Shown: positions 16,741 through 37,575 of the stretch, piece by piece
How the letters are laid out: each line of letters begins with the position of its first letter
How positions within the stretch are numbered: position 1 is the first letter of the stretch
NCBI RefSeq assembly: GCF_021631985.1
Contig: NZ_CP070225.1
Coordinates: 1,240,001-1,304,000 of the forward strand
Origin: Sandaracinus amylolyticus
Lineage (GTDB): Bacteria; Myxococcota_A; Polyangia; Polyangiales; Sandaracinaceae
Length of the DNA: 64,000 nucleotides
Reading direction: 5' to 3'
Position numbers and translations under genes: made by a program
Notes under the pieces: model-generated
Databases searched by the model: none
Told to the model about the DNA's origin: nothing
The model's input: the letters and a program-made list of their open reading frames with translations, nothing else

Positions 16741-16760
16741 ACGACCTCCGACGGGCGCGC

Positions 16761-16883
16761 GAGGCAGATCGATCGCCGTCGCTTGGGGTGCCGAGGCCCC
16801 GATGACGCAGGTCGAACTGCCTCCGACTACCCCGCGGGGTGATTCGAGGCAGATCGAAGTGCCGTGCTTGGGGTGTCCAGGCC
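16761..16883. repeat. Two 38-bp imperfect direct repeats upstream of nuclease/STAND gene
   Basis: Copy 1 (16761-16798) and copy 2 (16846-16883) share gaggcagatcga at the start, gcttggggtg in the middle and aggcc at the end, 85 bases apart. They lie between the stop at 16740 and the start at 16991. They could be duplicated regulator sites or a duplication left by insertion of the neighbouring gene. Confidence 0.65.
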
Positions 16884-16990
16884 GCACTTGGGCAGATGGA
16901 TCTCCCTGGTTGTGGCCTGCACGCCCCAATGGGCCCGCGTCCGACGAGCGGGCCGGTCGCGATTCAACCTGCAAGACTCCTGCGACCGCC

Positions 16991-19900: not shown

Positions 19901-20824
19901 CTCGCGTCGTTCAGCGAACGAGTAAGCGAGCTCGCGGCAAGCTATCCCCTCGAGACGTTCAGCGCGCTCGGCAGAATGGTGCGTTTGGGGTGCGCAGCCA
20001 ACCAACTGGTCGCGGACGCGTGGCTCGCGACGTCGGACGCAGTGCGAGCCCGCTGTTTCGCTGCGCTCGTCGAGGGGACGTATTCCGCGATCGCAACGGA
20101 CGAGACGGCTCGCACGTCCGCTCTGTCGACCTGGCTTCTCGACCAACTGGTGGAGGTGCCCGATCCGGACCACGTGTTCTCGGGGGCGAGCGACTGGCAT
20201 CTCGAGCAGGTTCTCGCGAAATGCGGGAGGCCCAGCGTGGAATGGGTGGCGACGTTCTTGGCCCAGCGCGCAGAGCGGTACGATCCCGATGGACACACGT
20301 ACGACGTGGTGCCCTACACGACGCCGCTTCACCACTTCGTCGACGTCACGGTCGTCGACCCGACCATCCTCACCACGGTGTTTCGGTACGTGGTCGGCGA
20401 GGCTCTCGTTCCGAAGTGGCTCTCTGCACTCGATCCATCCCGGAGCACGCTCATCGAGTTGATGGCCGCGGAGATTGATGCCGCCCGGACCCGGCCTGAA
20501 CAGCTTGCGCGAGCAGCTCGGTGGGCGCTCTGCTTTGTCGAGAACGGCGCCGAGTGGCGGCGCCTGGCCCAGAGGGCCGCTGGACACGCGTCCGCGTTCC
20601 CGAGCGACGACCGGGATCGCGTGTATCGGCAGATGGTTGACCGTCATCGCCTCTACACGAGCAAGTCGGGCGAGATCTCGCCCGCTCGTCTGCAGGAGCT
20701 GCGCGAGGCGCAGACTCGCCTGGACGAGGAACAGGACCCCGCGCTGCGCGACTACTGGCGCTGGCGATTGGAAGATGTGCGCGCGTCGATTGAGTACGAC
20801 CGCCAGGCTCTTGAAGAGCGCTAG
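16991..20824 (+). CDS. Mrr-like nuclease / STAND-like NTPase fusion, candidate anti-phage effector
   Basis: A 1277-residue soluble protein. Residues about 8-150 look like a PD-(D/E)xK Mrr/restriction-like domain: Glu12 in the first helix, GPDGGQD (Asp42) and VYQAKH (Gln53, Lys55). An NTPase-like module follows, with entry motif TFRGRDELV (181-189), P-loop position APAGVGSSR (206-214) and Walker B VVLDELDE (258-265). The P-loop lacks the catalytic Lys (normally GKT/GKS), so nucleotide binding may be weak or lost. The remaining ~900 residues are helical, as in STAND sensor domains. Nuclease plus STAND plus long sensor resembles the Avs-type phage-sensing architecture (inference). Codon use is less GC3-biased than neighbours and includes a TTA leucine, a sign of transfer. 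ATG 16991 precedes the nuclease helix; ATG 16802 is in frame but its extension is not protein-like. Confidence 0.78.
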   Translation: MTLRWDAITSGETFQSLAAQIVRRVDAHAHVFTWPGPDGGQDARSGDGETVYQAKHHARPEARHPREDALKELSKIRAYREPTHPRHPQWASVRRWVLLTNVATQATEAERWDREVVPAFTREGLNVELWGAERLEQHVSEFPALKRAFFDGETRAFISLGEALHYARTSDPAAHEGELPTFRGRDELVTEIVARFATAPIVPLVAPAGVGSSRLALAVAIEAVTAGVVPAVYFANPANLAADTRWYEAFVPDQPMLVVLDELDENDGLRSVKRILEEMRTRAPMWKLLVVTKTHQQHLRTAVFVRAADTLEVPPLQEDATASLIDEIVRRRVPANALLERQLGRVARAVAHDSEGFPAWAVLSALTVASGGSLSRVPGSRREQVQTYLHTIRERVSREMSSGPAVVRVLRAVAALGTLDAQRDGHSSWVREMANGISSEQLREILEALERLRVVRRRGVNRRLWSVVPAVLSDAVLAEWLTDDARTLAPNANALDLVTWLREAIASGPNPQSPVVPVLRRLARMAFVGAEHAQPISHAIRGLFRDARARGEQALDLEWVIDLAENIAHSMPGIAVDLALHVLRGGTSNENMRVRSRVPWLLFHAACGARTSDERREVVGALERAAHAEARSPTRNEQDGKSAPRVIKRILDSIDEVVSDFTLEFEAMIAAMLAGMPPDPARIDSAAWFIEPLVHAEGFTTHFERDTFHYGTYRVHPESERAKARWRVLDRLWGILEHEPSSPWRPLAWRMLIASRSAMLFGSDDPRDRTRAHLQRAVGILTAHQALGLDELRAARRTWSWHLEYGDEPAEKALAEQCEAHYVRAVRADPATNILLGDEFQADLEPVRTGSAIDVAQMFAAILDAAERLDDDFAWARARRIADYVGGLPRAECREAWFLISPRAHAGPRHAGVVTEYLGGVLSAARRTGDRAIVDLWRDVDLRASALAVASRAALYGNRLTVAAELVQEDLASFSERVSELAASYPLETFSALGRMVRLGCAANQLVADAWLATSDAVRARCFAALVEGTYSAIATDETARTSALSTWLLDQLVEVPDPDHVFSGASDWHLEQVLAKCGRPSVEWVATFLAQRAERYDPDGHTYDVVPYTTPLHHFVDVTVVDPTILTTVFRYVVGEALVPKWLSALDPSRSTLIELMAAEIDAARTRPEQLARAARWALCFVENGAEWRRLAQRAAGHASAFPSDDRDRVYRQMVDRHRLYTSKSGEISPARLQELREAQTRLDEEQDPALRDYWRWRLEDVRASIEYDRQALEER

Positions 20825-21249: not shown

Positions 21250-22557
21250 ATGAACGACGCCGTTGCGCCGCCTCAGCTCTCGTTCTGGCCGTCGACCGAC
21301 GTCGGCCGGGTGCGGGATCACAACGAGGACGCGTTCCTCGTGGACAAGAAGCTCCAGCTCTTCGTCGTCGCCGACGGAATGGGCGGGCACGCGGCGGGCG
21401 AGGTCGCGTCGAACCTCGCGTCGCGCACGGTGCGCGACGTGATCGCGGGCCAGCGCGAGGCGCTCGTCGAGTTCGAGCAGGGCCACGGCGGGACCACCCG
21501 CACCGACCTCCTCCGACTCATGGAGTCCGCGGTCCAGCAGGCCTGCTCCGCGGTCTACCAGGAGGGCGTGAAGGACGAGACCAAGCGCGGCATGGGGACC
21601 ACGCTCGACGCGCTGCTCCTCGTCGGCAACCGCGGGTTCATCGCCCACGTCGGCGACTCGCGGGTGTACCTCTATCGCCAGGGCTCGGTGCACCAGCTCA
21701 CCGAGGACCACTCGCTGATCAACGAGCTGCTCAAGCGCGGGCGCCTCTCGCGCGAGCAGATCGAGAAGCTCCAGTACAAGAACGCCGTCACCCGCGCGGT
21801 CGGCGTCTACGAGTCGGTCGAGGTCGACACCATCGACTTCGACGTGCTGAAGGGCGATCGCTTCCTCATCTGCAGCGACGGCCTGCACGGGTACTTCGAG
21901 GAGGCGGAGCTCGCGAAGCTCTTCGCCGAGACCCCCGAGGACCAGCTCTCGCAGCGCCTCGTCGAGCTCAGCAACGAGCGCGGCGGCAAGGACAACATCA
22001 CCGCGATCGTGGTGAAGGTCCCCGACGCCGAGGCGGGCGTCGATCGCCTCGCGCGCGAGGTGAACCTCAAGATGGAGGTTCTCCACCGCATGCCGCTCTT
22101 CCGGTTCCTGACCTACCAGGAGCTGGTGCGCGTCCTGAACATCACGCACGTGCGCACGTTCGAGCCGGGCGGCGAGATCGTCGGGCAGGGCAGCGACGGC
22201 GACGAGCTCTTCATCGTGCTCACCGGCAACGTGCAGGTGGAGTCGAGCGGCGCGCCGATCGCGTCGCTCGGGCCGGGTCAGCACTTCGGCGAGATGGCGC
22301 TGATCGACAAGGCGCCGCGCAGCGCCGACGTGCGCGCGATCGAGGCGAGCTCGCTGCTGACCATCCGCCGCCGCGACTTCTTCGACATCATCCGCAAGGA
22401 CCACGCGATCGCGGTGAAGCTGCTGTGGAGCTTCCTCGGCGTGATCAGCGAGCGCCTGCGCAACACGTCGCGCGAGCTCGGCGAGGCGCGCGAGGGCAAG
22501 CGCCCGCCGGACCTCGCGGACTCGATCCTGCGCGCGTTCGAGCACGAGGACTCGTGA
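21250..22557 (+). CDS. PP2C-type Ser/Thr phosphatase fused to a cyclic-nucleotide-binding domain
   Basis: A 435-residue cytoplasmic protein. Residues 10-265 are a PP2C (PPM) phosphatase with its metal-binding motifs: RDHNEDAF (22-29), VADGMGGHAAGE (40-51), HVGDSRVYLYR, CSDGLHGYF and GGKDNITAIVV. Residues about 275-395 are a cyclic-nucleotide-binding (Crp/PKA-type) domain: HRMPLFRFLTYQELVRVL, FGEMALIDKAPRSADVRA. The phosphatase removes phosphate from proteins modified by Hanks-type kinases. The sensor domain suggests control by cAMP, c-di-GMP or another nucleotide, though the phosphate-binding cassette has Ser in place of Arg-Thr-Ala-(T/S)-class residues, so the ligand is uncertain. ATG 21250 is the first in-frame start. 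The stop overlaps the next start as GTGA. Confidence 0.92.
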   Translation: MNDAVAPPQLSFWPSTDVGRVRDHNEDAFLVDKKLQLFVVADGMGGHAAGEVASNLASRTVRDVIAGQREALVEFEQGHGGTTRTDLLRLMESAVQQACSAVYQEGVKDETKRGMGTTLDALLLVGNRGFIAHVGDSRVYLYRQGSVHQLTEDHSLINELLKRGRLSREQIEKLQYKNAVTRAVGVYESVEVDTIDFDVLKGDRFLICSDGLHGYFEEAELAKLFAETPEDQLSQRLVELSNERGGKDNITAIVVKVPDAEAGVDRLAREVNLKMEVLHRMPLFRFLTYQELVRVLNITHVRTFEPGGEIVGQGSDGDELFIVLTGNVQVESSGAPIASLGPGQHFGEMALIDKAPRSADVRAIEASSLLTIRRRDFFDIIRKDHAIAVKLLWSFLGVISERLRNTSRELGEAREGKRPPDLADSILRAFEHEDS

Positions 22558-23576: not shown

Positions 23577-23590
23577 GGAGCTCGAGAGCC

Positions 23591-23800
23591 GACCACGACC
23601 ACGACCACGTTCACGTCGCCGACCACGTTCACGTCGCCGACCACGTTAACGTCGCCGACCACGTTAACGTCGCCGACCACGTTCACGTCGCCGACCACGT
23701 TCACGTCGACGACCACGTTCACGTCGACGACCACGACGTGAGCGTCGACGTGGTCGTGGTCGTGGTCGTGAACGGCGACGGCGACGGCGACGGCGACGAG
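23591..23800. repeat. 18-bp tandem repeat tract with inverted flank
   Basis: Three gaccac hexamers (23591-23608) lead into seven 18-bp units of the type gaccacgttcacgtcgcc from 23603 to 23728. Units 3 and 4 carry gttaac and the last two end in gtcgac. The tract then turns into its complement (gtggtcgtggtcgtgg near 23750-23768) and ends in four ggcgac hexamers (about 23774-23798). As DNA it can fold into a long hairpin. Read from GTG 23573, which overlaps the FecR stop as GTGA, it would encode His/Asp/Val repeats up to a stop at 23930-23932, but that frame collides with the better gene at 23851. Confidence 0.85.
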
Positions 23801-23850: not shown

Positions 23851-24009
23851 GTGTCCGAGTACGCCGACCAGATCCGACGCCGCGCCCGCATCGCGCGCCT
23901 GGGCCGCGGGCTCTTCCTGCTCTTCGCGCTGAGCGGCCTGATCGGCGGTGCGGTGCGGGGCTGCCGGGCCCTCCGCGCCCAGGAGGATCGCGTTCACGAA
24001 GCTCGGTGA
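23851..24009 (+). CDS. Small single-helix membrane protein
   Basis: A 52-residue product starting at GTG 23851: a charged N-terminus (SEYADQIRRRARIARLGRG), one hydrophobic helix (LFLLFALSGLIGGAV) and a basic tail. Codons are strongly G/C at the third position, as in neighbouring genes, which is why I treat it as real despite its size. No ribosome binding site is obvious. Function unknown. It follows the repeat tract and precedes the giant TPR operon. Confidence 0.5.
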   Translation: MSEYADQIRRRARIARLGRGLFLLFALSGLIGGAVRGCRALRAQEDRVHEAR

Positions 24010-24085
24010 GCCAGGCTGAGCTGCCCGCTCGGACAGGAGCCACCGCGGGCGCGTGATCGCGGTTCTGTTTTTCGTCCCCCGTCGG

Positions 24086-24091
24086 TATAGT
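24086..24091 (+). promoter_or_regulatory. Possible -10 element of the giant TPR operon
   Basis: TATAGT (5/6 match) lies at 24086-24091, 17 bases after the weak -35 TTCTGT (24063-24068), in a local T-rich patch. It would start transcription about 20 bases before ATG 24120. Confidence 0.4.
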
Positions 24092-24119
24092 GGCGTCCCG
24101 CTGTCCTCCCCGGGACACG

Positions 24120-27100
24120 ATGACGACGACCCAGCCTCCGATCACGCCCTCGAGCCGTCCCGGCGGCGGTCTCTCGCCCGATCCCGTCGACGCGCGCGTC
24201 GCGATGCTCCGGGCAGAGCTCGAAGCGGCGACCGATCGCGCGCAGAAGGCCGCGATCCAGTACGAGCTCGGCCACGTCACGGAGGTCGAGCTCGGACAGG
24301 AAGCGCAGGCGGTCCGCGAGTACCTCGCCGCGTACAACCTCGATCCCTCGTTCGCGCCGCCGCTCGTCGCGCTGGTGCGGATCTTCGAGCGACGTCGCTC
24401 GTTCAAGAACCTCGCGCGGCTCTACGAGGCCGAGACGAAGAGCGCGGCGAGCGCGGAGGAGCGCGCGTCCTCGCTCGTCGATCGTGCGGTGCTCGCCGAG
24501 GATCAGCTCGGCTCGCCGGATGCGGCGCGCGCGCTCTACGAGCAGGCAATCGCGGAGCACCCCGAGGGCGCGGCGCTGCCCGCGCTCTTCCTCGAGCGTC
24601 TGTTGCTCGCGCGCGGTGAGCGCGACGCGGCGACCGACGTGATCGCGACGCGCGCGGCGCAGGTCGCGGATCCGACGCTCAAGGGGATGCTGCTGATCGA
24701 AGTGGCGCGCGGGCGCGAGGAGCGCGGCGACGTCGACGGAGCGCTCGAGGCGGCGCGTCAGGCGGCGACGCTGCCGAGCGCGCGCTTCCGCTTCCTCGAG
24801 CACGTCGAGCGCATCGCGCGGCGTCATGCGCGGGTGCCGGAGATCGTCGCGGCGCTCGAGGGGCGCGCGGCGCTCGCGGCGCGGGCGGCGCGCGGTGAGG
24901 ACGGCACCGTCGCTTCGGGGGTCGGGGGATCGGGCGCGTTCTCGATCAAGCGCTTCGCCGACGAGGCGCGCGCGGCGGGTGAAGCGGCGGCGCTCTATCG
25001 CGAGGCGGCGCGCATCCGGATGCTGCACCTCCGCTCGCAGGACGGCACCGGCGACGCGCAGGGCGCGCTCGCCGCGCTCGGCAAGGCGATCCTGCTGCGC
25101 TCGGGCGACCTCGCGCTGCATCGCGATCGCATGCTCGCGGCGGAGCTCGCGGGCGATCTCGTCACCGCGGCCGACGAGGCGCGACGGCTGCTCGCGGCGG
25201 GCGTCGAGGGACGACACGCCGCGCCGCTGCACTTCCGGGTCGCCGAGGAGGCGCAGGCGCGCGGCGAGACCGACGAGGCGCGCGCCGCGCTGGCGGCGGC
25301 GCTCGAGGCCGATCCGCGATCCGCGGTGGTCGCGGCGATGCTCGAGGACCTGAGCGTCGCGGGCGCGCAGGCGGGCGACGGGCGGCTCGAGGGCTGGGTC
25401 GCGCGGCTCGCGGCGCGGGCCGAGTCGAGCGAGGGCGCGCTGCGGGCGCGCATCGCGTGGCAGGGCGCGCATCTCGCGGCGACGCGCATCCACGACGCGG
25501 AGCACGCGCGCTCGCTCTACGCGCTGGCGCTCGCCGCGGCGGACGACGCCACGAAGGCGACGATCGCGCGCGAGTGGCTCGGCGCGAGCCTGCGCCTCGG
25601 GCACGCGGCCGGCGCGCGCGATGCGGCGACGGCGCTGCTCGATCAGACGACGATCGACGACGAGGAGCGCAGCGCGATCCTGCGCGACCTGCACGAGCTC
25701 GAGCGCATGGTGCTCGAGGACGACGCGGCGGCGGACGCGACGCTCGATCGTGCGCTCCAGACGAGCGCGGCGGCGTGGGCGCCCGACGCGGCGCGCGTGC
25801 TCGCGGCGATGCGCGGCGACGGCGCGCTGCTCGCGCGGGCGCATCGCAAGCTCGCGGAGCGCGCGAGCGATCCCGACGCGGCGGCGGCGCATCTGTGCGC
25901 GGCGGCGCGCGCGCTGGTGCGGGTCGCGGCGTCGCGCGAGGGTGGGCTCGAGGCGTCGCGCGCCGAGCTCGAGGACGCGGCGACGCTGCTCGCCGACGCG
26001 CTCCAGCGGGTGCCCGGGCATCGCTACGCGGTCGCGCTGCTCGAAGAGGTCTACCGGGCGCGCGGCGACGCCGACGCGGTGGTGAAGCTGCTGCGCGAGG
26101 CCGCGGAGGCCGATCGTGCGGGGCGCGCGATGGAGACGCAGCTGCTCCTCGCGGGCGCGGCGGCCGAGGCGGCGGGTGACCACGCGCTCGCGCGCCGCAC
26201 CTACGAGGAGGCCGCGGAGCGCGATCCCTCGGCGATCGGTCCGCTCTTCGCGCTGCGCCGGCTCGCCGAGCTGCGCGAGGACGACGCGCTCCTGCGGCTC
26301 GCGCTGGAGCGGCTCTCGGACGTCGAGGTGGGCGCGGGCGCGCCGGGGCGCGCGACGCTGGAGCTGGGCGAGCACCAGCAGCTCGTCGCGAAGCAGCCGA
26401 GCCTGGCCGAGCCTCCGCTGCGGCTCGCGCTCGGGGTCGCGGATCTCGCGGCGCCGGCGGCGCTCGATCTCGCGCTGATGGGCCCTTCGTCGCCGGCGTC
26501 GATGCTCGACGGAACGCGCGAGCTCGTCGCGCGCGCCGAGGGCGATGCGCGGCTGGCGTGGCGTCGCGAGCTCGGCGGTCTGCAGCTCGATCTGCTCGGC
26601 GAGAGCGCGGCGGCGGAGGCGATCGCGGACGAGATCCTCGCGACCTCGTCCGACGAGCCCTGGGCGCTGCTCGCGAAGCTGCGCGCGACGTCCAGCGATC
26701 CGGCGCGCGCGGCGGATCGCGCGGCGGCGCTGCTGGCGCTCGCGGACGCGACGAGCGACGCCGACGCGTCGGCGGATCTGGTGGTGCACGCGCTGCGCGT
26801 CGCGGCGCTCGCGGGCCAGGCCTCGGACGATGCGATCCTGCGCGCGGTCGAGCTCGAGGACGCGCGGCCCGGATCGTTCGCCGCGGCGACGCTCGGGCTC
26901 GAGGCGCTGAGCGAGGCCGACGATCCCGGCGAGCGCGCGGACGCGCTGGGGCGCTGGGCGGTGCACGCGTCGCCGGAGTCGGCGCGCGCGACCCACGCGG
27001 CGCGGGCACGGGCCCTCGGGGCGGCGGGGCGCGGCGCGGAGGCGACGGACGCGCTGCGCGAGGTGCTCGCGAGCGATCCCGACGACCTCGCGTCGTGGGA

Positions 27101-29030
27101 GGCGCTGCGCGTCGCGGCGCGCGATGCCGAGCGCTGGATGGACGTGGTCGAGGCGTGTGATCGCCTCGCGGCGCAGGTCGACGGAGAGCTGCGCGCGACG
27201 CTGCTCGAGGAGGCCGCCGCGGTCCTGATGGACCAGACGGATCCCGAGGACGCCGAGGCGCTGGTCCAGGCCGAGCGCCGCCTGCGCGAGGCGCTCGAGA
27301 TCGACGGCGGCCGCGCGATCGCGTACGGGCGCCTCCACGATCTGCTCGCGGAGCGCGGCGACGACGCCGGGCTGCTCGAGCTGGTCCAGGCGCGCGCCGA
27401 TCGCACCGACGAGCCCGAGCAGCTCGCGCCGCTGTTCTACGAGCTGGCGCGCCTGCATCGCGGCCTCGGTCGTCGCGACGATGCGCTGGTGTCGCTCGAC
27501 AACCTGCTGATGCTCGAGCCCGAGCACGTCGGCGGTCTCGCGCTGCTGGTCGAGCTGCACGTGCAGCGCGAGGCGTGGCCCGAGGCGGTGCAGGCGCTGC
27601 GCACGCTCGCCGGTGCGAGCGACGTCCCGGCGAGCCAGCGCCGCATCGCGCGCCTCGGCGCGGCGGACTTCCTCGACAAGAAGATGGGCCAGCCGCTCGC
27701 AGCGGCCGACGAGCTCGAGGCGATCGACGCGCTCGGCCTCGCCGACCGCGCGCTCTTCGAGCGCATCGCGGATCTCTGCGAGCGCGGCGGGCGCATCGAT
27801 CGTGCGGTGAGCGTGCTCGGGAAGGCCGCGGCGGCATCGCGCGAGCCGGCGCAGCGCGCGGCGGCGGAGCGTCGCGCGGCGCGTCTCTGGGACGAGCGGC
27901 TCGGCGACGAGGACCAGGCGATCGCCGCGTACCGTCGCGCGCTCGACGCGGTGCCGACCGACGTCGACGCGGGCGGGGCGCTCGCGGTGCTGCTCGACGG
28001 GCCGAGCCGGATCGCGCTCTCGACGTCGTTCGAGCGCTCGGTGCGCGAGCTGCTCGAAGCCGACCCGACCGAGCCCGAGGCGCTGCGCATGCTCGCGACC
28101 GCGGCGCGGTGGCGCGGCGACAAGGTGCTCGAGACCGCGGTGCTCGGCGCGCTCGTCGCGATCGACGCGGCGAACGAGGACGAGCGCGAGCAGCTCGGCG
28201 AGGACACCGAGGTGCTCCGCCGCGTGAAGCCGGGCGCGTCGAAGCTCGGCGAGGCGCGCCTCGCGGAGCTGATGGTCGCGGGCGTGAGCGGCCCGGCGAT
28301 GGAGCTCGCGCTGCTCGCGACCGAGACGCTGATCGAGATGGATCGGCTCGAGCCCTCGTCGTTCGGTATGGGCCGCGGCGAGCTGCTGCGTGACCCGGCG
28401 ACGTCGCCGGCCGCGCAGGAGGTGCTCGGCATCGCGATGCTGCTCGGCGCGCCCCTGGGCGACGTGTGGGCGGGCGGGCGCGATCCCCAGCTGCTCGCGA
28501 TGATCGCGAGCTACAAGGGCAAGCCCGCGTGGCTGCTCGGCGGAGGCGTGGGGCCGCCGCTGACCTCGCTGCGTCGCTACGAGATCGGGCGCTCCGCGAT
28601 CGCGCTGCGGCTCGGCCTCGGGCCCTTCGTGACGCGCAGCGCGGACGCGACGGCGACCGCGCTCTTCGCGATCGCGTCGGCGGCGGGCGCGCCGCTCCCG
28701 GTGGGCGAGGGGCGCGCGGGCATGGCGGACGCGACGCGCGCCGCGACCAAGGCGATGTCGCGCCGGGTGCGCAAGGCCGCGCCCGAGGTGATCGCGAAGA
28801 TCGGCGAGGGTGGACGGCCGGTGCTCGCGTTCGCGTCGGCGCTGCACGCGAGCTTCGCGCGCGTCGGGCTCATCGTCGCGGGCGACCTGCACGGCGTGCT
28901 CGCGCTCGTGCTCGGCCGCGCGCCGGAGCGCGACGCGGTGCGCGCCAACGCGTCGGCGCTCGATCTCCTCCGGTTCTGGATCTCGCCCGCGGCGATCACC
29001 GCGCGGCGCGAGCTGGGTCTCGCTTCATGA
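24120..29030 (+). CDS. Giant TPR-repeat protein (1636 residues)
   Basis: An almost entirely helical Ala/Glu/Arg/Leu-rich protein without signal peptide or membrane helix. Many degenerate tetratricopeptide repeats run from about residue 30 to 1400, e.g. AQAVREYLAAYNLDPSFAPP and ALREVLASDPDDLASWEALR with the usual small/Ala and Pro positions. Near residue 1400 the pattern changes to LGEARLAELMVAGVSGPAME and a non-repeat domain (about 1440-1636) containing ALRLGLGPFVTRSADATATA and LAFASALHASFARVGLIVAG. That domain has a counterpart at the end of the next protein. TPR arrays scaffold protein complexes; the partner is unknown. ATG 24120 is chosen over in-frame GTG 24090 because it follows a TATAGT promoter element. 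The stop overlaps the next start (ATGA). Confidence 0.85.
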   Translation: MTTTQPPITPSSRPGGGLSPDPVDARVAMLRAELEAATDRAQKAAIQYELGHVTEVELGQEAQAVREYLAAYNLDPSFAPPLVALVRIFERRRSFKNLARLYEAETKSAASAEERASSLVDRAVLAEDQLGSPDAARALYEQAIAEHPEGAALPALFLERLLLARGERDAATDVIATRAAQVADPTLKGMLLIEVARGREERGDVDGALEAARQAATLPSARFRFLEHVERIARRHARVPEIVAALEGRAALAARAARGEDGTVASGVGGSGAFSIKRFADEARAAGEAAALYREAARIRMLHLRSQDGTGDAQGALAALGKAILLRSGDLALHRDRMLAAELAGDLVTAADEARRLLAAGVEGRHAAPLHFRVAEEAQARGETDEARAALAAALEADPRSAVVAAMLEDLSVAGAQAGDGRLEGWVARLAARAESSEGALRARIAWQGAHLAATRIHDAEHARSLYALALAAADDATKATIAREWLGASLRLGHAAGARDAATALLDQTTIDDEERSAILRDLHELERMVLEDDAAADATLDRALQTSAAAWAPDAARVLAAMRGDGALLARAHRKLAERASDPDAAAAHLCAAARALVRVAASREGGLEASRAELEDAATLLADALQRVPGHRYAVALLEEVYRARGDADAVVKLLREAAEADRAGRAMETQLLLAGAAAEAAGDHALARRTYEEAAERDPSAIGPLFALRRLAELREDDALLRLALERLSDVEVGAGAPGRATLELGEHQQLVAKQPSLAEPPLRLALGVADLAAPAALDLALMGPSSPASMLDGTRELVARAEGDARLAWRRELGGLQLDLLGESAAAEAIADEILATSSDEPWALLAKLRATSSDPARAADRAAALLALADATSDADASADLVVHALRVAALAGQASDDAILRAVELEDARPGSFAAATLGLEALSEADDPGERADALGRWAVHASPESARATHAARARALGAAGRGAEATDALREVLASDPDDLASWEALRVAARDAERWMDVVEACDRLAAQVDGELRATLLEEAAAVLMDQTDPEDAEALVQAERRLREALEIDGGRAIAYGRLHDLLAERGDDAGLLELVQARADRTDEPEQLAPLFYELARLHRGLGRRDDALVSLDNLLMLEPEHVGGLALLVELHVQREAWPEAVQALRTLAGASDVPASQRRIARLGAADFLDKKMGQPLAAADELEAIDALGLADRALFERIADLCERGGRIDRAVSVLGKAAAASREPAQRAAAERRAARLWDERLGDEDQAIAAYRRALDAVPTDVDAGGALAVLLDGPSRIALSTSFERSVRELLEADPTEPEALRMLATAARWRGDKVLETAVLGALVAIDAANEDEREQLGEDTEVLRRVKPGASKLGEARLAELMVAGVSGPAMELALLATETLIEMDRLEPSSFGMGRGELLRDPATSPAAQEVLGIAMLLGAPLGDVWAGGRDPQLLAMIASYKGKPAWLLGGGVGPPLTSLRRYEIGRSAIALRLGLGPFVTRSADATATALFAIASAAGAPLPVGEGRAGMADATRAATKAMSRRVRKAAPEVIAKIGEGGRPVLAFASALHASFARVGLIVAGDLHGVLALVLGRAPERDAVRANASALDLLRFWISPAAITARRELGLAS

Positions 29031-32000
29031 GCGGCACGGACGACAAGCGCGGCGCCGATATCGACTTCGACTGGGACGACGCGCTCGCCGACTGGGAGCG
29101 CGATCTCGACGACAAGTCCGAGGCGCGCTCGGGCCCGATGCCGCAGAAGCCCGCGGCCCCGCCGGCGAAGGACAAGGAGCCCGCGCGCGCGCTCTACCGG
29201 CCGCCGGATCCCAGCGAGTTCAAGCGCCCGGTGCCGCGCGGCGCGCCGCCCGCTCGCCCCGAGCCGCCGAGGCCGGCGCCGCCTCCGCCGCGGGTGCAGG
29301 AGCCGGTGCTCCCGCCCGCCGAGGACGTGCACGTCTCGTTCGACGACGACGACGACGACGAGCACACGCGCATCGCGTCGATCCCGAAGGAGCTGATCGC
29401 GTCGCTGGTGACCGCGCGCGAGCGCGAGGAGCCCTCGTCGGAGCAGCACCGGCTGAGCACGCGCCCGCCGCCGCCGGGGATGGCGACCTCGGAGGACTCG
29501 GTCGTGGTGCCGCCCGCGGCGCCGCCGCCGATCGATCTCGACCTCGACGACATGCTCGACGGGCTCGACCAGGACACGCGCGCGTATCCGGTCGACGTGC
29601 CGCGCTTCGTGAGCCCGATCCGCGGCCGCACGTCGGCGCCGCCGGGGCCGGCGTCGGTGCCGCCGCCCCCGTCGGAGGCCCCGTCGCCGCCGCCGATGGG
29701 CACGCCGACGGCGAGGCCGGGCGCGCCCGACGAGGACGCGCTCGCGCTGGCGCTCTCGTCGGCGCCGCCGGCGGCGCGCACGCCGACGCCGGAGGGCGCG
29801 CCGACGTCGTCGTCGCCGCCCCGCAAGTCGTTGCTGCCGTCGCCCGGCGATCTCTCGTGGGAGGAGATGCCGGAGCCGGCGCGGCCGACGCGCGAGCCGC
29901 TCGCGCTCGGCGACGCCGAGGGCGGCTTCGAGGACGTCACGACGCTGCACGCGCCGGGCGCGCGTGCGATCGCGCCGCCGCCTCCGCCCGAGCCTCCGCC
30001 GGCGCCCGTCGCCGCGACGCCTCCGCCGCCTCCCTCGTCGGGCTCGGCCGCGGCAGCGGCCCTGCGCGCCGCGGTCGCGGCCCGCAATGCCGGGGGGCCT
30101 CGCCCCTCGTCGCCCGAGGGAGCGCCCGACGCGGGCACGTCGTCGTCGACGCCGCCGAAGATGCCCCCGCTGCCGCGCCCCGGCGCTGCGGCGGCCCCTG
30201 GCAAGCCCGTCGTGCCGCTGCCGCGCCCGGGAGGGCTGCCGCCGGTCCCGCGGCCGCCGGGCGCGCGGGTGAGCGTCCCGCAGCCGGGCGCCCCGCGGGT
30301 CCCGCCGCCCGGCGGTGTCGCGGCGCCGCGGCCCCCGGTGGTGCCGCGTCCCGGCGCCGAGCCCGCTGCGGCGCCGCCCGCGCCCGAGCCGCAGGAGCAG
30401 GTGCTCGCGACGCCGGTCGCTTCGCCCGACGCCCGCGCCGCGGCGCCCGCGCTCGACGTGGGCGCGCCGGCGAGCGACGTGGTGGAGGTCTCCACGGCGG
30501 AGCGCCCGACGCCTGCGCCCGGCGCGCCGGTCGCCGACGACGACTTCGCGTTCCTCGACGCGCTCGAGGCGCCGGCCCCGAAGCCGGCGCCGGCGCCCGA
30601 GCCGGCCGACGCGTTCGGCGGCCTGGTGCCGGTCGACGAGGAGAGCGACGAGGAGCCGAGCGTCGCCGAGGTCTCGATCCGCGTGAGCGAGCCCGACCTC
30701 GTGGTCGCTCCTGCACGCGACGACGACGACGAGCCCGAGGTCGCGACGGTCGCCGCGGACGACGACGAGCCGGTGATCGCGGCGAGCGCCGCCGTCGTGA
30801 TCGACGAGGACGAGCCGGAGGCGCGCGTCTCCGAGCCCGCGCCTGCTGTGGCGCCTGCGCCCACCGCGCGCGATCGTGGTGCCGCCGCGGCGCGCCGCAC
30901 CGTTCGCTCGCGCAAGCCGCGCGTCGAGGTGTTCCCGCTGGTCGGCCGCGGCGCGGACGCGCTCGGCGCGCGCCGCGATCTCCTCCTGCGTCTCGCCGAG
31001 GGCCGCACCGGCAGCGCGCGCGCGCGGCTGCTCCTCGCGGCCGCCGAGATCGATCACCAGCTCGGCCGCGCCGACGACGCGCGCGAGCACACGCTCCTCG
31101 CGCGCGAGGCCGATGCGACGGACCCCGTCGTGGTCCGGGCCGCGCGCCGTGACGCGCTCGGCCGCGGCGCGTACGACGAGGCGGCCGCGCTGCTCGAGGC
31201 CGAGATCGCGCTGCCGCTCTCGCCCGCGGAGCGCGTGGCGGCGCTGCTCACGCTCGCCGAGGTGCGTCTCCAGCAGCTCGGCGACGCGTCGGGCGCGGAG
31301 CGCGCGGCGCTCGATGCGCTCGAGCTCGCGCCGCGCTCGGTCGCCGCATCGCTCGTGCTCGCGAGCGCCCGCGCGGCCTCGGGCGCCGGCTCGTCCGCGG
31401 TCGAGGCGCTCTCGCGCGCCGCCGATGCGTGGAGCGATCCGCGCGCGCGTGCTGCGCTCCGCGTGAGCGTGGCGCGTGATGCCGAGCGCGCCGGCGATCG
31501 CGCGCGGGCCGCGACGCTCCACGCCGCGGCGCGTACCGACGATCCCCAGGCGCTCGACGCGGCGCTCGGTGTCGCGCGCACCGAAGCGGGCGCTCCGCAG
31601 GCCGACGCGCTCGAGGCGCTCGGGCGACCGCTGCCCGAGGGCGTGCTGCGCGACGCGCTGCTCCGCCGCGCGTCGCTCGCGCTGCTGACGTCGACGGTCC
31701 GCGAGACCCGCGACGAAGCGCGCACCAGCGCCGCGCGTCGCGCGCTCGCGATGCTCGAGGACGCGCGCGCGCTCCCGGCGCTGCGCACCCGCGCGGCCGC
31801 GGCGTCGTACGTCGGCGACATCGACGTCGAGCTCTCCACGCTCGAGGCGTGGGCAGGCGCGAGCGGAGGCACCGATCGCGCGCTCGCGATGGTGCGCCTC
31901 GCCGAGAAGCACGGCGCGACCGGCGATCTGCCGGCGGCCGATGCGACGCTGCACGCGGCGGCGCTCGCCGACGCGTCGCTCTCGACGATCCGCATCGTGC

Positions 32001-35000
32001 GCGAGGTGCTCGCGCGCCGCGCCGGAAATCGCGCGCTGCTCGTCGAGGCGGTCGAGTCCGCGGGCGCGCTCGCGGCGGCCGCGAAGCTCGCGATCGATCC
32101 CGCGTCGACCGCGCGCGAGCGCGAGCTCGTGGGCGAGGCACGGCGCGCCGACGAAGCGCCGCTCTGCGCGGAGGTGCTCTGGCTCGATCTCGCGGCCGGC
32201 GCCGCGGACGCGACCGAGGTCGCGGCGGCGCTCCGTCACGAGGTCGATCGCACGCCGCCCGAGCGCCGCACCGGCGCGCTGCTCGCGCTCGCGGATCGCG
32301 CGCTCGAGGAGGGCGATGCCGAGGCCGCCGAGCGCACGCTGCGCGAGGCGCGTGATCTCGCGCCGGGCGACGCGACGGTGCTGCGCCCGCTCGGGCGTCT
32401 CGCGGCCGCGCGCTCGCCGCGCGATGCGGCGGCGCTCTGGCTCGAGGAGGCGACCGCGGCGACCGGCGCGCGCGCCGCGTTCGCCGCGACGGCCGCGGGC
32501 CTGCTGCTCGAGGTCGCCGAGGGCGACGCGATCGGCGCGTACCGCCGCGCCCTCGACGCGATGCCGGGCTACGGGCCCGCGTTGTGGTCGCTCGAGCCGG
32601 TCGCGCGCGCGGCGGGCGACGCGATCACGCTCGTCGACGTGCACGAGCAGGCCGCCGACGGCGCGCTCACCGAGGTCGACGCGGCCGCGAGCCTGGTGCG
32701 CGCCGCGCTGCTGCGCGCGGAGTCGGACCCCGCGTCCGCCAGCGCGCTCCTCGCGCGTGCTCGCGAGAAGACCCCGCACGACGCGGTGCTCGTCGATCTC
32801 GTGCTGCGCCTCGGCGATGCGCTCACGCCCGACGAGCGCGCGCAGCTGACGCTCTCGCTCGCCGAGGGCGCGCCGCGCGAGCTCGCGCGCGCCATCGAGC
32901 TCTCCGCCGCGGCGTCGCTCGAGGACGCGGGCGAGCCGGGGCGCGCTGCCGAGATCTATCGCGCGCTCGCGGAGCGCCATCCCAACGATCCGCTGATCGC
33001 GCTGCCGCTCGATCGCGCCGAGCTCCACGCGGGCGACACGTCGCGCGTGGCGGAGCGTCGCTTCGCCGCGGTGCGCGACGCCGCGGACGACGCACTGCGC
33101 GTGCTCGCGCTCGAGCGGCTCGCGGAGCTCGATCTCGAGGAGCGCGACGACGCGGCGAGCGGTGTGCTCTCGCTCGTGTCGATCCTCGAGGTCTCGCCGG
33201 GTCACGTGCCGAGCCTGCGCACGCTCGAGCGCTACTACCTCGAGCAGGATCGTCGCGAGGATCTCGCGGGCATCGAGGAGCGCCTCGCGATGCACCTCGA
33301 GACCCCGGAGGACGCCGCGGTGCACCTGCGCCTCGCGGCGCGCCTCAAGCTCGCGGGCGAGGGTGTGCCGGGCGACGCGGCCGACGCGGTGCTCGTGTCC
33401 GCCGCGCCGCGGGTGCGCATGAACGGATGGCTCGCACGGCGCATCGCCGCGGCCGCGCGCGCGGCGGGCGCGACGGAGCTCGAGACCAGCACGACGTCGG
33501 AGATCGCGTCGCGTCTGCCGACCGCGCTCGCGCGCACCGCGGGCGCGATGCGGGTGTCCGATCTGCGCGCGGCCGCCGGCGATCTCACGGGCGCTGCGAG
33601 CGCGCTCGCAGCGGCGCTCGAGGCCTCGCAGGATCATCCGTTCGCGGCGGAGCGTCTCGCGCGCTTGCGCGAGGGCGCCGGTGACGCGCGCGGAGCGGCC
33701 GAGGCGCTCGCGGTCGCGGCGCGCGCGGCGCACGTGCCGGGTCGCGCGGCGTCGCTCTGGTACCGCGCCGGCGTGCTCTGGCAGGACACGATCGGCGACG
33801 AGGATCGCGCGCTCGAGGCGCTCACCGAGGCGAGCAAGATCGACGTCGGGCACCTCGACGTGTTCGATCGCCTGCGCAACCTGCTCGAGCTGCGCGAGGA
33901 CCACGCCGCGCTCTCCGAGCTCGTCGCGCGTCGCACCGCGGCGGGCGGTGGTGATCCCGCGCTGCTCGTCGAGCTCCACGCGCTCCAGGCGAAGCTCAAG
34001 GAGAAGCTCGGCGATCGCGAGGGCGCGCGCGAGGCGCTGCGTGCGGTGCTCGCGCTCTCGCCCGAGATGCTCGACGCGCTGCGACGCCTCGCCGAGCTCT
34101 GCCTGGAGGACGAGGACTATCGCAACGCCGCCGAGGCGCTGATCCGCATCGCGCGCATCCGCAAGGATCGCGAGGAGCTGCGCTGGGTCTTCTTCACGCT
34201 CGGCGAGATCTACGACCGGCACATCCCGGACGTGAAGCGCGCCGAGGCGGCGTACCGCCGCGTGCTCAAGCTCGCGCCCGACGACGTGACCGCGATGGAG
34301 CGCCTCGCCGCGCTCTTCCGGCGCGACAACCAGCTGCAAGCCGCGGCCGAGCAGCTCGGCGAGCTCTCGCGCGTCGAGCCCGATCCCGACCGCGCGCGCG
34401 GGCACCAGCTCGCGCTCGCGCAGGTGCTCGAGCAGATGGGCGATCCCCGCCGCGCCGAGCAGGTGCTCGAGACCGCGCGTCGCGCCGCGCCGACCGAGCT
34501 CGTCGCGCTCAAGGCGCTCGCCGACTTCTACACGCGACAGCGCGCGATGCCCGCGCACGCAATGCACCTCAACCGCGCGGTCGCGGACTTCCGCCATGCG
34601 CTCGGCAACGATCTCGCCGATGCCGCGGCGTGGCTGGGGCTGGTCGAGGTGCTCGGGTGGCGTGGTCGCGGCGATGCGGCGCGCGTCGCGGCGGGCGCGG
34701 CGTTCGCGCTCGGCGTGACCGACCTCGAGATCTCGCGGCTCGTCGATGCGCAGGGCGGCGTGCCCGGCCTCGGCGCGGCGGCGGCCGATGCCGCGCTCGA
34801 CGATCTGCTCGCGCCGCAGGGCCTGCCGGGCGCGCTGCGCGCGGTGATGCGCGCGGCGGGCCCGGTGCTCGAGAAGGTGCTGCCCTTCGACCCCCGCGCG
34901 TACCGTGCCGAGAAGCTCGGCGCGCGCGACGGAGCGATCCGCGCCGCGGCGGTCGACGTCGCGAAGTGGTTCGGCATCCCCGACGTCGAGATCTGGATCA

Positions 35001-35593
35001 CCGCGGGCGCGCCGCGTGTGTGCGTGCCGGTCTCGAGCGGTCCGCCGGTCGCGCTGATGATCGGGCGTGACCTCCTCGCGGTCGACGATCGCGAGCGGCT
35101 CTTCGTGCTCGCGCGCGCGCTCAAGATCGCGAGCCTCGGGCTCTCGGTCGCGGTGCGCAGCCAGCCGCAGGAGCTCGTGCTCGCGCTGGCGGGGCTCGTG
35201 CACAACTTCGATCCTCACTACGCGCCGGGCGGCATCGATCCGGCAGCGCTCGGCGACTGGAGCAAGCGCGTCGCGCGTCAGCTCCCGCGCCGTCTCGCCG
35301 ACGAGCTCGGGCCCGTCGTGTTCGAGATGGCGGGCGCGACCGACTACGAGCCCACGCGCCTCGCGATGGCGGCGTCGGAGCTCGGGGATCGCGTCGCGCT
35401 GCTCGCGGGCGGATCGATCCCGGCCGGCCTCTCGGCGCTGCTGCGCCTGTCGGGCGAGAACGGTCTCGCGGAGTCGACGTCGACGCGCGTCGCGCAGCTG
35501 CGTCGCTTCCCCGAGGTGCTCTCGCTCGCGAGCTTCGCGGTGTCCGACGTCCACTTCGAGGCCCGACACCGCGCGGGCGCCGACAAGCTCTGA
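29027..35593 (+). CDS. Giant TPR-repeat protein with disordered N-terminus (2188 residues)
   Basis: Translationally coupled to the preceding gene by ATGA. Residues 1 to about 620 are low-complexity and Pro/Ala/Asp-rich, starting with DIDFDWDDALADWERDLDD and including DDDDDDEHT. Such acidic or proline-rich leaders are usual for disordered cytoplasmic adaptors. The following ~1300 residues are TPR-like helical repeats (e.g. AEAAYRRVLKLAPDDVTAME, ALRAVLALSPEMLDALRRLA). The last ~250 residues form a distinct domain with VALMIGRDLLAVDDRERLFV, LARALKIASLGLSVAV and LAMAASELGDRVALLAGGSI. That domain resembles the end of the upstream protein and, in its helical layout, M48-type domains, but no HExxH is present. 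It is probably a large cytoplasmic scaffold. Confidence 0.85.
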   Translation: MSGTDDKRGADIDFDWDDALADWERDLDDKSEARSGPMPQKPAAPPAKDKEPARALYRPPDPSEFKRPVPRGAPPARPEPPRPAPPPPRVQEPVLPPAEDVHVSFDDDDDDEHTRIASIPKELIASLVTAREREEPSSEQHRLSTRPPPPGMATSEDSVVVPPAAPPPIDLDLDDMLDGLDQDTRAYPVDVPRFVSPIRGRTSAPPGPASVPPPPSEAPSPPPMGTPTARPGAPDEDALALALSSAPPAARTPTPEGAPTSSSPPRKSLLPSPGDLSWEEMPEPARPTREPLALGDAEGGFEDVTTLHAPGARAIAPPPPPEPPPAPVAATPPPPPSSGSAAAAALRAAVAARNAGGPRPSSPEGAPDAGTSSSTPPKMPPLPRPGAAAAPGKPVVPLPRPGGLPPVPRPPGARVSVPQPGAPRVPPPGGVAAPRPPVVPRPGAEPAAAPPAPEPQEQVLATPVASPDARAAAPALDVGAPASDVVEVSTAERPTPAPGAPVADDDFAFLDALEAPAPKPAPAPEPADAFGGLVPVDEESDEEPSVAEVSIRVSEPDLVVAPARDDDDEPEVATVAADDDEPVIAASAAVVIDEDEPEARVSEPAPAVAPAPTARDRGAAAARRTVRSRKPRVEVFPLVGRGADALGARRDLLLRLAEGRTGSARARLLLAAAEIDHQLGRADDAREHTLLAREADATDPVVVRAARRDALGRGAYDEAAALLEAEIALPLSPAERVAALLTLAEVRLQQLGDASGAERAALDALELAPRSVAASLVLASARAASGAGSSAVEALSRAADAWSDPRARAALRVSVARDAERAGDRARAATLHAAARTDDPQALDAALGVARTEAGAPQADALEALGRPLPEGVLRDALLRRASLALLTSTVRETRDEARTSAARRALAMLEDARALPALRTRAAAASYVGDIDVELSTLEAWAGASGGTDRALAMVRLAEKHGATGDLPAADATLHAAALADASLSTIRIVREVLARRAGNRALLVEAVESAGALAAAAKLAIDPASTARERELVGEARRADEAPLCAEVLWLDLAAGAADATEVAAALRHEVDRTPPERRTGALLALADRALEEGDAEAAERTLREARDLAPGDATVLRPLGRLAAARSPRDAAALWLEEATAATGARAAFAATAAGLLLEVAEGDAIGAYRRALDAMPGYGPALWSLEPVARAAGDAITLVDVHEQAADGALTEVDAAASLVRAALLRAESDPASASALLARAREKTPHDAVLVDLVLRLGDALTPDERAQLTLSLAEGAPRELARAIELSAAASLEDAGEPGRAAEIYRALAERHPNDPLIALPLDRAELHAGDTSRVAERRFAAVRDAADDALRVLALERLAELDLEERDDAASGVLSLVSILEVSPGHVPSLRTLERYYLEQDRREDLAGIEERLAMHLETPEDAAVHLRLAARLKLAGEGVPGDAADAVLVSAAPRVRMNGWLARRIAAAARAAGATELETSTTSEIASRLPTALARTAGAMRVSDLRAAAGDLTGAASALAAALEASQDHPFAAERLARLREGAGDARGAAEALAVAARAAHVPGRAASLWYRAGVLWQDTIGDEDRALEALTEASKIDVGHLDVFDRLRNLLELREDHAALSELVARRTAAGGGDPALLVELHALQAKLKEKLGDREGAREALRAVLALSPEMLDALRRLAELCLEDEDYRNAAEALIRIARIRKDREELRWVFFTLGEIYDRHIPDVKRAEAAYRRVLKLAPDDVTAMERLAALFRRDNQLQAAAEQLGELSRVEPDPDRARGHQLALAQVLEQMGDPRRAEQVLETARRAAPTELVALKALADFYTRQRAMPAHAMHLNRAVADFRHALGNDLADAAAWLGLVEVLGWRGRGDAARVAAGAAFALGVTDLEISRLVDAQGGVPGLGAAAADAALDDLLAPQGLPGALRAVMRAAGPVLEKVLPFDPRAYRAEKLGARDGAIRAAAVDVAKWFGIPDVEIWITAGAPRVCVPVSSGPPVALMIGRDLLAVDDRERLFVLARALKIASLGLSVAVRSQPQELVLALAGLVHNFDPHYAPGGIDPAALGDWSKRVARQLPRRLADELGPVVFEMAGATDYEPTRLAMAASELGDRVALLAGGSIPAGLSALLRLSGENGLAESTSTRVAQLRRFPEVLSLASFAVSDVHFEARHRAGADKL

Positions 35594-35601
35594 GCGCGGC
35601 G

Positions 35602-36201
35602 ATGCGCATCGGGCTGCTCGGACCGACGGAAGACGACCAGGCGGGCTTCCGCGAGGCGGTGTCGTTCCTGCTGGCCGACGTCGAGGCCGATCAGATCGTC
35701 TATCTCGGTCGCGGCGAGTTCGCGGATCGCGCGATCGACGCGTGGGTGCGCGAGCTCGGCGGCGAGGACGCGGAGAGCGCGTTCCTCGCGCGCGCCGCGC
35801 ACCTCGCGACCGAGGGCTCGCCCGCGCAGATCGAGGCGCTGCTCGAGACCGACGCCGCGATCTCGCAGCTCGCGCGCATCCGCAAGATCCCGCCGCCGCC
35901 GTCGCGCGCGATCGAGATGCTCGACGACCGCGTCGTCCTCTTCGTGCACGACAAGAGCATCCTCGACGAGGAGGACATCGCGAACGCGCACCTCATCGTG
36001 TACGGGCGCGGCGCGGAGGCGGATCTGCGGCGCTTCGGCAAGCGCACGTTCTTCACGCCGGGGCCGCTCTCGGGCGGGCGGGTCGGCGTGCTCGAGTCGA
36101 GCGACGACGGCACCAGCGTCGCGCTCTACGATCTCTCGGGGATGCCGGTGTGGCGCGAGCCGATCGTCTCGCCCGGCTCCAAGGTGATCGTCGCGACATG
36201 A
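35602..36201 (+). CDS. Metallophosphoesterase-like protein lacking metal ligands
   Basis: A 199-residue cytoplasmic protein. The layout follows calcineurin-like (YfcE-type) phosphoesterases: an N-terminal strand MRIGLLGPTEDD where active enzymes have D-x-H, VYLGRGEF where they have GD, LIVYGRGAE where they have GHTH, and FFTPGPLSGGRVGVLE where they have NPGS-x-x-x-R. All expected metal ligands are replaced, so if the relationship holds this is a pseudoenzyme, probably binding rather than hydrolysing. This is inference from motif order; a different fold is possible. ATG 35602 lies eight bases after the giant TPR stop, and its stop overlaps the nadD start (ATGA). Confidence 0.6.
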   Translation: MRIGLLGPTEDDQAGFREAVSFLLADVEADQIVYLGRGEFADRAIDAWVRELGGEDAESAFLARAAHLATEGSPAQIEALLETDAAISQLARIRKIPPPPSRAIEMLDDRVVLFVHDKSILDEEDIANAHLIVYGRGAEADLRRFGKRTFFTPGPLSGGRVGVLESSDDGTSVALYDLSGMPVWREPIVSPGSKVIVAT

Positions 36202-36752
36202 GCGAGACGATCGGCGTGTTCGGCGGCAGCTTCGATCCCCCGCACTGCGGGCACGTGCTGCTCGCGACGTATGCGCTCTCGGCCGCGCCGATCGATCGAC
36301 TGCTCGTCGTGCCGACGTTCGCGCATCCGTTCGGCAAGCAGATGGCGCCCTACGAGCATCGCGTCGCGATGTGCGAGCGTGCGTTCGGTCTGCTGCGCGG
36401 CGCGGAGATCTCGCGCATCGAGGAGGAGCTCGGCGGCGCGAGCTACACGGTGCGCACGCTCGAGGCGCTCCACGCGCGACGTCCGGGGGTCACGTTGCGT
36501 CTGCTCGTCGGCGCCGACGTGCTCGGAGATCTCGAGAAGTGGAAGGACTTCGAGCGCGTGCGCGCGCTCGCGCCGCTCTTCGTGGTCGGGCGCAGCGGCT
36601 ACGCGCGCGAAGAAGGGATGGAGACGCCGGACCTCCCGGCGATCAGCTCGACGCGGGTGCGCGAGCAGCTGCGCGCGCACCGCACGATCGGCGGGCTCGT
36701 GCCGCGCGACGTGGCGCGCTACTGCGACGAGCACGGTCTCTATCGTGGCTGA
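36198..36752 (+). CDS. nadD: Nicotinate-nucleotide adenylyltransferase
   Basis: A 184-residue cytoplasmic enzyme that adenylates nicotinate mononucleotide to deamido-NAD, the penultimate step of NAD synthesis. The nucleotidyltransferase signature GGSFDPPHCGH is at residues 9-19 (HxGH motif). The middle contains LLVGADVLGDLEKWKDF, equivalent to the conserved GxDxLxxxxxW segment, and the end has ISSTRVREQL (the ISSTxxR motif). The length is normal for the family. ATG 36198 overlaps the preceding stop as ATGA, and the 3' end overlaps the next gene by eight bases. The operon places NAD synthesis with two giant TPR proteins, which is unexpected. Confidence 0.92.
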   Translation: MSETIGVFGGSFDPPHCGHVLLATYALSAAPIDRLLVVPTFAHPFGKQMAPYEHRVAMCERAFGLLRGAEISRIEEELGGASYTVRTLEALHARRPGVTLRLLVGADVLGDLEKWKDFERVRALAPLFVVGRSGYAREEGMETPDLPAISSTRVREQLRAHRTIGGLVPRDVARYCDEHGLYRG

Positions 36753-37575
36753 TCGCGTGGTCGTGATCGGGCGCGGGCGCCTCGGTGGGCGCGTCGCGCG
36801 CGCGGTCTCGGCGCAGCTCGTCGGCGGGCGCGAGCACTCGCTCGAGGTCGTGCGGGCCGCGGAGGTGATCGTGATCGCGGTGCCGGATCCCGCGATCGAG
36901 AGCGTCGCGGAGCGGATCGCGCCGGTGCTCGACGCGTCGCACGTCGTGCTGCACTGCGCGGGCAGCCGCGGGCGCGACGTGCTCGCGTCGTGCGCGGCGC
37001 GCGGCGCGTCGACGGGCGTGATGCATCCGCTGGTCGCGATCGCGAGCGAGGAGAGCGTGCTCGCGGACCGCACGTTCGTGATCGACGGAGATGCGCGCGC
37101 GATCGACGCGGCGTCGCGCATCGCGCGGGCGTGCGAGGCGCGGGTGATGATCGCGCCGCTGCACGGTGCTGCGTACCACGCTGCGGCAGCGCTGGTCGCG
37201 AACGGGAGCACCGCGCTCGCGGCGGTCGGCGTGTCGATCCTCGAGCGGCTCGGCGCGACGCGCGAGGACGCGGAGCGCGCGGTCGCCGGGCTGCTCGCGA
37301 GCGTCGCGCAGAACGTGGCGAGCGTCGGCGTCCCGCGCGCGCTGACCGGGCCGATCGCGCGCGGTGATGCGGGCACGGTCGGGCGACATCGCGAGGCGCT
37401 CGCGGAGATCGATCGCGAGGCGCTCGCCGCCTACGACGGAGTCGCGCCCGCGGTGCTCGACGTCGCGTCGCGCGCGGGGCTGGACCCGAAGGCGCGCCGC
37501 GCGATCCGCCGCGCGCTCAGCGGGCGATCCTCAGCGTCCCCTGCAGGATCTCGTCGGGCCCCGCGACGTCGGTGA
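36745..37575 (+). CDS. Rossmann-like / DUF2520 domain protein
   Basis: A 276-residue protein with an N-terminal NAD(P)-binding Rossmann segment (VVVIGRGRLGGRVARAV, GxGxxG-like) followed by AAEVIVIAVPDPAIESVAER and VVLHCAGSRGRDVL. The C-terminal helical domain (APLHGAAYHAAAALVANGST onward) matches the DUF2520 family, whose members resemble ketopantoate/6-phosphogluconate-type dehydrogenases but have no settled reaction. GTG 36745 is chosen; it overlaps the nadD stop by eight bases. The final 59 bases overlap the convergent lipoprotein gene, and the Ser/Arg-rich tail is encoded by that overlap. Confidence 0.8.
   Translation: MADRVVVIGRGRLGGRVARAVSAQLVGGREHSLEVVRAAEVIVIAVPDPAIESVAERIAPVLDASHVVLHCAGSRGRDVLASCAARGASTGVMHPLVAIASEESVLADRTFVIDGDARAIDAASRIARACEARVMIAPLHGAAYHAAAALVANGSTALAAVGVSILERLGATREDAERAVAGLLASVAQNVASVGVPRALTGPIARGDAGTVGRHREALAEIDREALAAYDGVAPAVLDVASRAGLDPKARRAIRRALSGRSSASPAGSRRAPRRR

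Follow-up and report, generated by a model that had tools for sequence, protein, structure and literature searches.

The gliding machinery of Myxococcus xanthus includes GltI, a tetratricopeptide repeat (TPR) protein of 4,132 residues without a signal peptide, whose gene stands in the order gltG-gltH-gltI-gltJ (PMC3169522). Within the gliding machine of myxobacteria, few components have a role as poorly understood as that of GltI. The M48-TPR protein BepA is periplasmic. In this work, we describe a pair of adjoining genes, TPR1 and TPR2, found in a 64,000-nucleotide stretch of Sandaracinus amylolyticus DNA (contig NZ_CP070225.1 of assembly GCF_021631985.1, positions 1,240,001 to 1,304,000 of the forward strand; hereafter the window, to which coordinates refer unless stated otherwise). 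The source genome comprises 10.96 Mb in two contigs. Found in soil-dwelling myxobacteria, the two genes encode large paralogous TPR proteins that end in a common domain, and the pair is a coupled form within a superfamily that has not been catalogued and to which a protein in the GltI position, next to a GltG-family gene, also belongs. The features of the pair are as follows.

24120-29030, + strand: TPR1, a TPR protein of 1636 residues (open reading frame; Pfam TPR_8, 8.6e-13; orthologues in 24 relatives)
28236-29027, + strand: C-terminal domain of TPR1, about 265 residues (AlphaFold pLDDT 92.7, pTM 0.89; HHalign to the TPR2 domain, E 5.5e-31)
29027-29030, + strand: ATGA shared by the TPR1 stop and the TPR2 start, read from the sequence
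29027-35593, + strand: TPR2, a TPR protein of 2188 residues with a disordered leader (open reading frame; Pfam TPR_19, 4.2e-8)
29027-30886, + strand: leader of TPR2, about 620 residues, proline-rich and acidic, variable among relatives
29063-29107, + strand: conserved acidic tryptophan motif DFDWDDALADWERDL, N-terminal in the leader (9 of 24 orthologues)
34739-35590, + strand: C-terminal domain of TPR2, about 284 residues (AlphaFold pLDDT 94.8, pTM 0.92 for the 398-residue end)

A preliminary description of this DNA had proposed two giant TPR paralogues joined by ATGA and translationally coupled, and the open reading frames, the overlap and the retention of the junction in relatives bear this out. 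In every one of the 24 loci of the order Polyangiales where both genes could be delimited, TPR1 and TPR2 lie side by side in the same direction, as the preliminary description required of close relatives. The junction lies between -5 and +7 nucleotides in 22 of these loci, and 14 have the four-base overlap seen here (ATGA or GTGA). The C-terminal region of TPR2 is matched in 54 of the 57 genomes of the order, and pairs also occur in two further families of the class (L138, L140). Another pair, in a genome labelled just 'same phylum' (L141; G161:C1:248107-254618), is nested in an f12 clade, by transfer, contamination or a taxonomy problem. On the opposite strand, two long open reading frames (23994-28892, 1632 residues; 28577-35569, 2330 residues) are most likely artefacts of high GC content, since it is the + strand proteins that are conserved. 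Upstream of TPR1 (23590-23790) there are short tandem-like repeats of GACCACGTTCACGTCGCC and GTGGTCGTG.

Plain sequence comparison understates the kinship of TPR1 and TPR2. Direct BLASTP between them gave nothing significant (best E 0.073, within the repeats), and their C-terminal likeness is thus not demonstrable from these two sequences alone. The impression of unrelatedness that this gives is wrong. Searched separately, the two C-termini converge on one third protein of the genome (3791346-3792464, genome coordinates), and when the last 330 residues of family members, with orthologues of each protein collected in about two dozen Polyangiales genomes, were compared as profiles, HHalign matched the TPR1 and TPR2 families over 324 columns with 99.9% probability and an E value of 5.5e-31. 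Each family aligns with the clade of the third paralogue, TPR3, with similar values, and every clade has a common C-terminal tail, roughly DLLxFxxSxxxxxLRxxLG. The shared domain of the preliminary description is therefore real, although its length is about 280 residues and not 200; the two stretches quoted there as similar lie in one and the same helical region, slightly out of register.

AlphaFold predicts the same topology for the TPR2 end (398 residues) and the isolated TPR1 domain (278 residues), namely a helix, three strands, a helix and then a helical bundle. Because TPR helices filled the list of Protein Data Bank matches when the whole TPR2 end was used, the isolated TPR1 domain was modelled for comparison. 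In VIA, its three best matches all belong to the M48 metallopeptidases (3c37, Z 5.4; ZMPSTE24, Z 5.1; BepA, Z 5.0), with alignments of 147-167 residues at an rmsd of 5.1-6.6, and the next match has a Z of 3.3; Foldseek returned nothing significant for the same domain (3c37, E 3.7). An M48-like fold, which the preliminary description had guessed at, is thus the leading structural candidate. The catalytic HExxH is absent from all 105 C-terminal domains checked. The helix at its position reads LARALKIA in TPR2, IGRSAIAL in TPR1 and LVAKSMVLA in one giant relative, and the place of the first histidine is usually taken by arginine or lysine in the TPR2, TPR3 and giant clades. No M48 family was among the model matches of 27 domain members, and the domain has no Pfam entry and no sequence match in the Protein Data Bank. 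From the models, the domain is best read as a degenerate, pseudopeptidase-like form of the M48 fold, a relationship that is likely but unproven, given the middling Z scores and the non-significant Foldseek value. A search of the literature for a family of TPR/M48 pseudopeptidases in Myxococcota gave no relevant result.

The domain is carried by seven proteins of this genome: TPR1, TPR2 and others at 3.79, 2.00, 0.21, 2.70 and 9.42 Mb. The member at 2.70 Mb is a TPR giant of 3,357 residues. Hidden Markov models made from TPR1, TPR2 or TPR3 singly detect the C-termini of giants at about 1e-9 to 1e-26, and a single joint profile recovers both proteins of the pair and the 2.70-Mb giant in this genome. 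With a profile of the giant C-termini, matches at E 1e-8 or better came from 115 of the 219 Myxococcota genomes. In a tree, the TPR1, TPR2, TPR3 and giant sequences form separate clusters. The giant at 2.70 Mb follows a small TPR gene and a GltG-family gene, whose product of 691 residues has an FHA domain and scores 436.7 bits against NF033760 over model positions 3-649 of 650. All 15 giant-bearing loci fetched have a small TPR gene just before the giant; beyond that gene stands a strong GltG-like gene in eight, the other stretches ending too early, and in two members of the phylum a GltJ-type gene (Zn-ribbon and GYF) follows the giant. In view of the gene order and the properties of GltI in M. 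xanthus, the giant holds the GltI position. A GltJ-model search for Myxococcaceae found none of the 141 sampled genomes above the cut-off.

As judged from sequence, TPR1 and TPR2 possess the C-terminal domain expected of the superfamily to which the protein in the GltI position belongs. They are not GltI orthologues in length, having 1636 and 2188 residues against about 3,400-4,200, or in position, as the GltG-family gene adjoins the 2.70-Mb giant instead of the pair. Their summed length is near that of a giant, and a GltI split in two was considered; it was rejected because each has a C-terminal domain of its own, whereas the giants have just one, at the end. Among the other members, the fourth paralogue of this genome (L125 15378-19901, at 2.01 Mb) adjoins an S49 peptidase and a TPR protein with weak Zn-ribbon and GYF matches, members of the TPR3 clade are followed by response regulators with DUF4388 (L067 2280-3653, L071 13838-15127), and the copy at G000:C1:9417915-9418754, in an open frame of 628 residues, is the sole small member in this genome.

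The disordered leader of TPR2, with the acidic and proline runs noted in the preliminary description, is real, and in the relatives measured its length varies from about 50 to 810 residues. An acidic tryptophan motif is found within its first 50 residues in 9 of 24 orthologues, compared with a shuffled mean of 0.05, a figure that overstates its strength because the patterns were written after viewing the sequences; none occurs at residues 51-150. The motif is a candidate partner-binding site. The leader was also considered as a GYF ligand, but its four PPG-hydrophobic motifs (1.6 expected) are not conserved among leaders, and the idea was dropped.

We propose that TPR1 and TPR2 are paralogous cytoplasmic scaffolds, TPR superhelices translated in a coupled manner from one mRNA and probably acting jointly in one complex. 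The cytoplasmic location already suggested in the preliminary description would fit the TPR arrays, the disordered leader and the lack of an evident signal peptide on either protein. The C-terminal domain would be a degenerate M48-like (gluzincin) fold without a zinc or catalytic motif, serving as a docking or oligomerization cap and not as a protease, and the acidic leader with its N-terminal tryptophan motif may recruit partners. The pair would be part of a superfamily found across Myxococcota. The best-placed member of that superfamily, the giant downstream of a GltG-family gene, is in the position of GltI/AgmK, and this kinship suggests that the pair most likely serves as a cytoplasmic platform for an envelope-associated machine of motility, polarity or adhesion. 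We give this explanation as a whole a probability of about 0.5. Several points weigh against it. No gene of the Glt/Agl set adjoins the pair itself, and the kinship to GltI was drawn through the giant of this genome and not through the sequence of GltI from M. xanthus. The GltG-like (436.7 against 650 bits) and GltJ-like matches lie under the NCBIfam equivalog cut-offs, a direct link to GYF domains is unsupported, as the PPG-hydrophobic motifs are not conserved, and the likeness to M48 comes from middling Z scores only, with no support from sequence.

The place of BepA among the three best structural matches raises the possibility that the pair is a general scaffold of envelope biogenesis or protein quality control, like the M48-TPR proteins of the BepA/YfgC type, in which a dead peptidase domain binds clients. 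The SppA-like S49 peptidase next to the fourth paralogue points the same way. However, TPR1 and TPR2, unlike periplasmic BepA, have no evident signal peptide, the order of their domains is the reverse of that in BepA, HExxH is lost and no conserved chaperone or protease gene adjoins the pair, and we regard this reading as unlikely. To about the same extent, we doubt that the pair is a regulatory or signaling hub, for instance of Ser/Thr phosphorylation or a second messenger, and not a structural scaffold. It would account for the response-regulator/DUF4388 neighbors of the TPR3 clade and for the PP2C phosphatase with a cyclic-nucleotide-binding domain that is encoded upstream of the pair (243.7 bits to NF033484), but of the relatives, only the nearest one and, with the gene in the opposite orientation, one f7 locus showed the latter next to the pair, many stretches ending before that point. 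TPR1 and TPR2 themselves matched TPR families only in Pfam, and library scans of both proteins revealed no catalytic or sensory domain. The phosphatase gene itself (21250-22557), of the Stp1/IreP type, is followed with a few bases of overlap by a lipoprotein-like gene; further upstream, a protein of 1426 residues (16544-20821) has a weak match to nSTAND NTPases, below the cut-off.

Downstream of the pair, the following genes are encoded.

35602-36201, + strand: conserved gene of 199 residues, weakly phosphoesterase-like, a neighbor (no Pfam match; orthologues in 13 loci)
36198-36752, + strand: NadD, nicotinate-nucleotide adenylyltransferase, a neighbor (TIGR00482, 140.7 bits; cut-off 112.45)
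36745-37575, + strand: DUF2520/Rossmann protein, a neighbor (PF10728, 6.9e-24)

The preliminary description placed the first two of these genes with the pair in a single run of overlaps, and took the pair to be a scaffold made in fixed ratio with an enzyme of NAD synthesis. The junctions at 36198 and 36745 do overlap, but TPR2 and the next gene are 8 nucleotides apart. The idea that the run is a unit of NAD metabolism, in which the scaffold organizes NAD synthesis, draws on 15 of the 27 loci within the order, from five families (f1, f3, f4, f9 and f10), in which nadD follows the pair; in 13 of them the 199-residue gene stands in between. In families f5, f7 and f12, however, nadD does not stand beside the pair, and in one f7 genome its place is taken by coaE, encoding dephospho-CoA kinase; on the basis of these loci, an NAD scaffold was rejected as the core function. 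Moreover, the genes after related TPR giants are housekeeping genes of various kinds (rsmI, tsaE-carB), which suggests co-directional neighbors and not one functional unit. We consider the NAD reading very improbable; nadD is probably just a neighbor, and it and the 199-residue gene are treated here as such, their linkage not being core to the pair. Of the 'phosphoesterase-like pseudoenzyme' of the preliminary description there remains a weak signal and no more (MJ0936, E 0.68; Metallophos_2, 0.079, in 1 of 13 members): of the metal motifs sought in the alignment (DxH, GD, GNH and GHxH), neither DxH nor GHxH is conserved.

A platform for envelope-associated motility, polarity or adhesion is our preferred reading of the pair, and a broader and more speculative view can be built on it. 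TPR giants acting as cytoplasmic scaffolds, each with a dead metallopeptidase domain as its cap, might form an uncatalogued Myxococcota-wide set of platforms for several envelope machines, GltI being one member and the pair the platform of another, unrecognized machine in nearly all Polyangiales. This view is tentative, and we think it less probable than not, while holding it somewhat likelier than a quality-control scaffold or a signaling hub. A domain common to giants in the GltI position and at least three other TPR clades nevertheless offers a concrete, testable module, a dead peptidase-like docking fold, and the conserved coupled pair may be the sign of a so far unstudied complex in the cytoplasm of nearly a whole order.

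Like GltI (AgmK) of the M. xanthus gliding machinery, which has no signal peptide (PMC3169522), TPR1 and TPR2 are very large TPR proteins with no evident signal peptide, and the giant that here follows a GltG-family gene shares its C-terminal domain with them; they differ from GltI in being about half its size, in forming a coupled pair and in lying outside a Glt cluster. SgmX, the MglA-GTP effector, is likewise a large, likely cytoplasmic TPR protein of myxobacteria and a motility effector (PMC7519303), but it has 1,060 residues with TPRs at both ends, and neither TPR1 nor TPR2 has its model, NF052243, among the matches listed at E values up to 1. NadD, encoded downstream, is an ordinary member of TIGR00482 above the cut-off that adjoins the pair in only part of the order. 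The M48 metallopeptidases 3c37, ZMPSTE24 and BepA provide the best structural matches to the C-terminal domain, and BepA also combines M48 and TPRs in one protein; in TPR1 and TPR2, by contrast, the domain has neither HExxH nor a Pfam M48 match and stands at the C terminus, after the TPRs.

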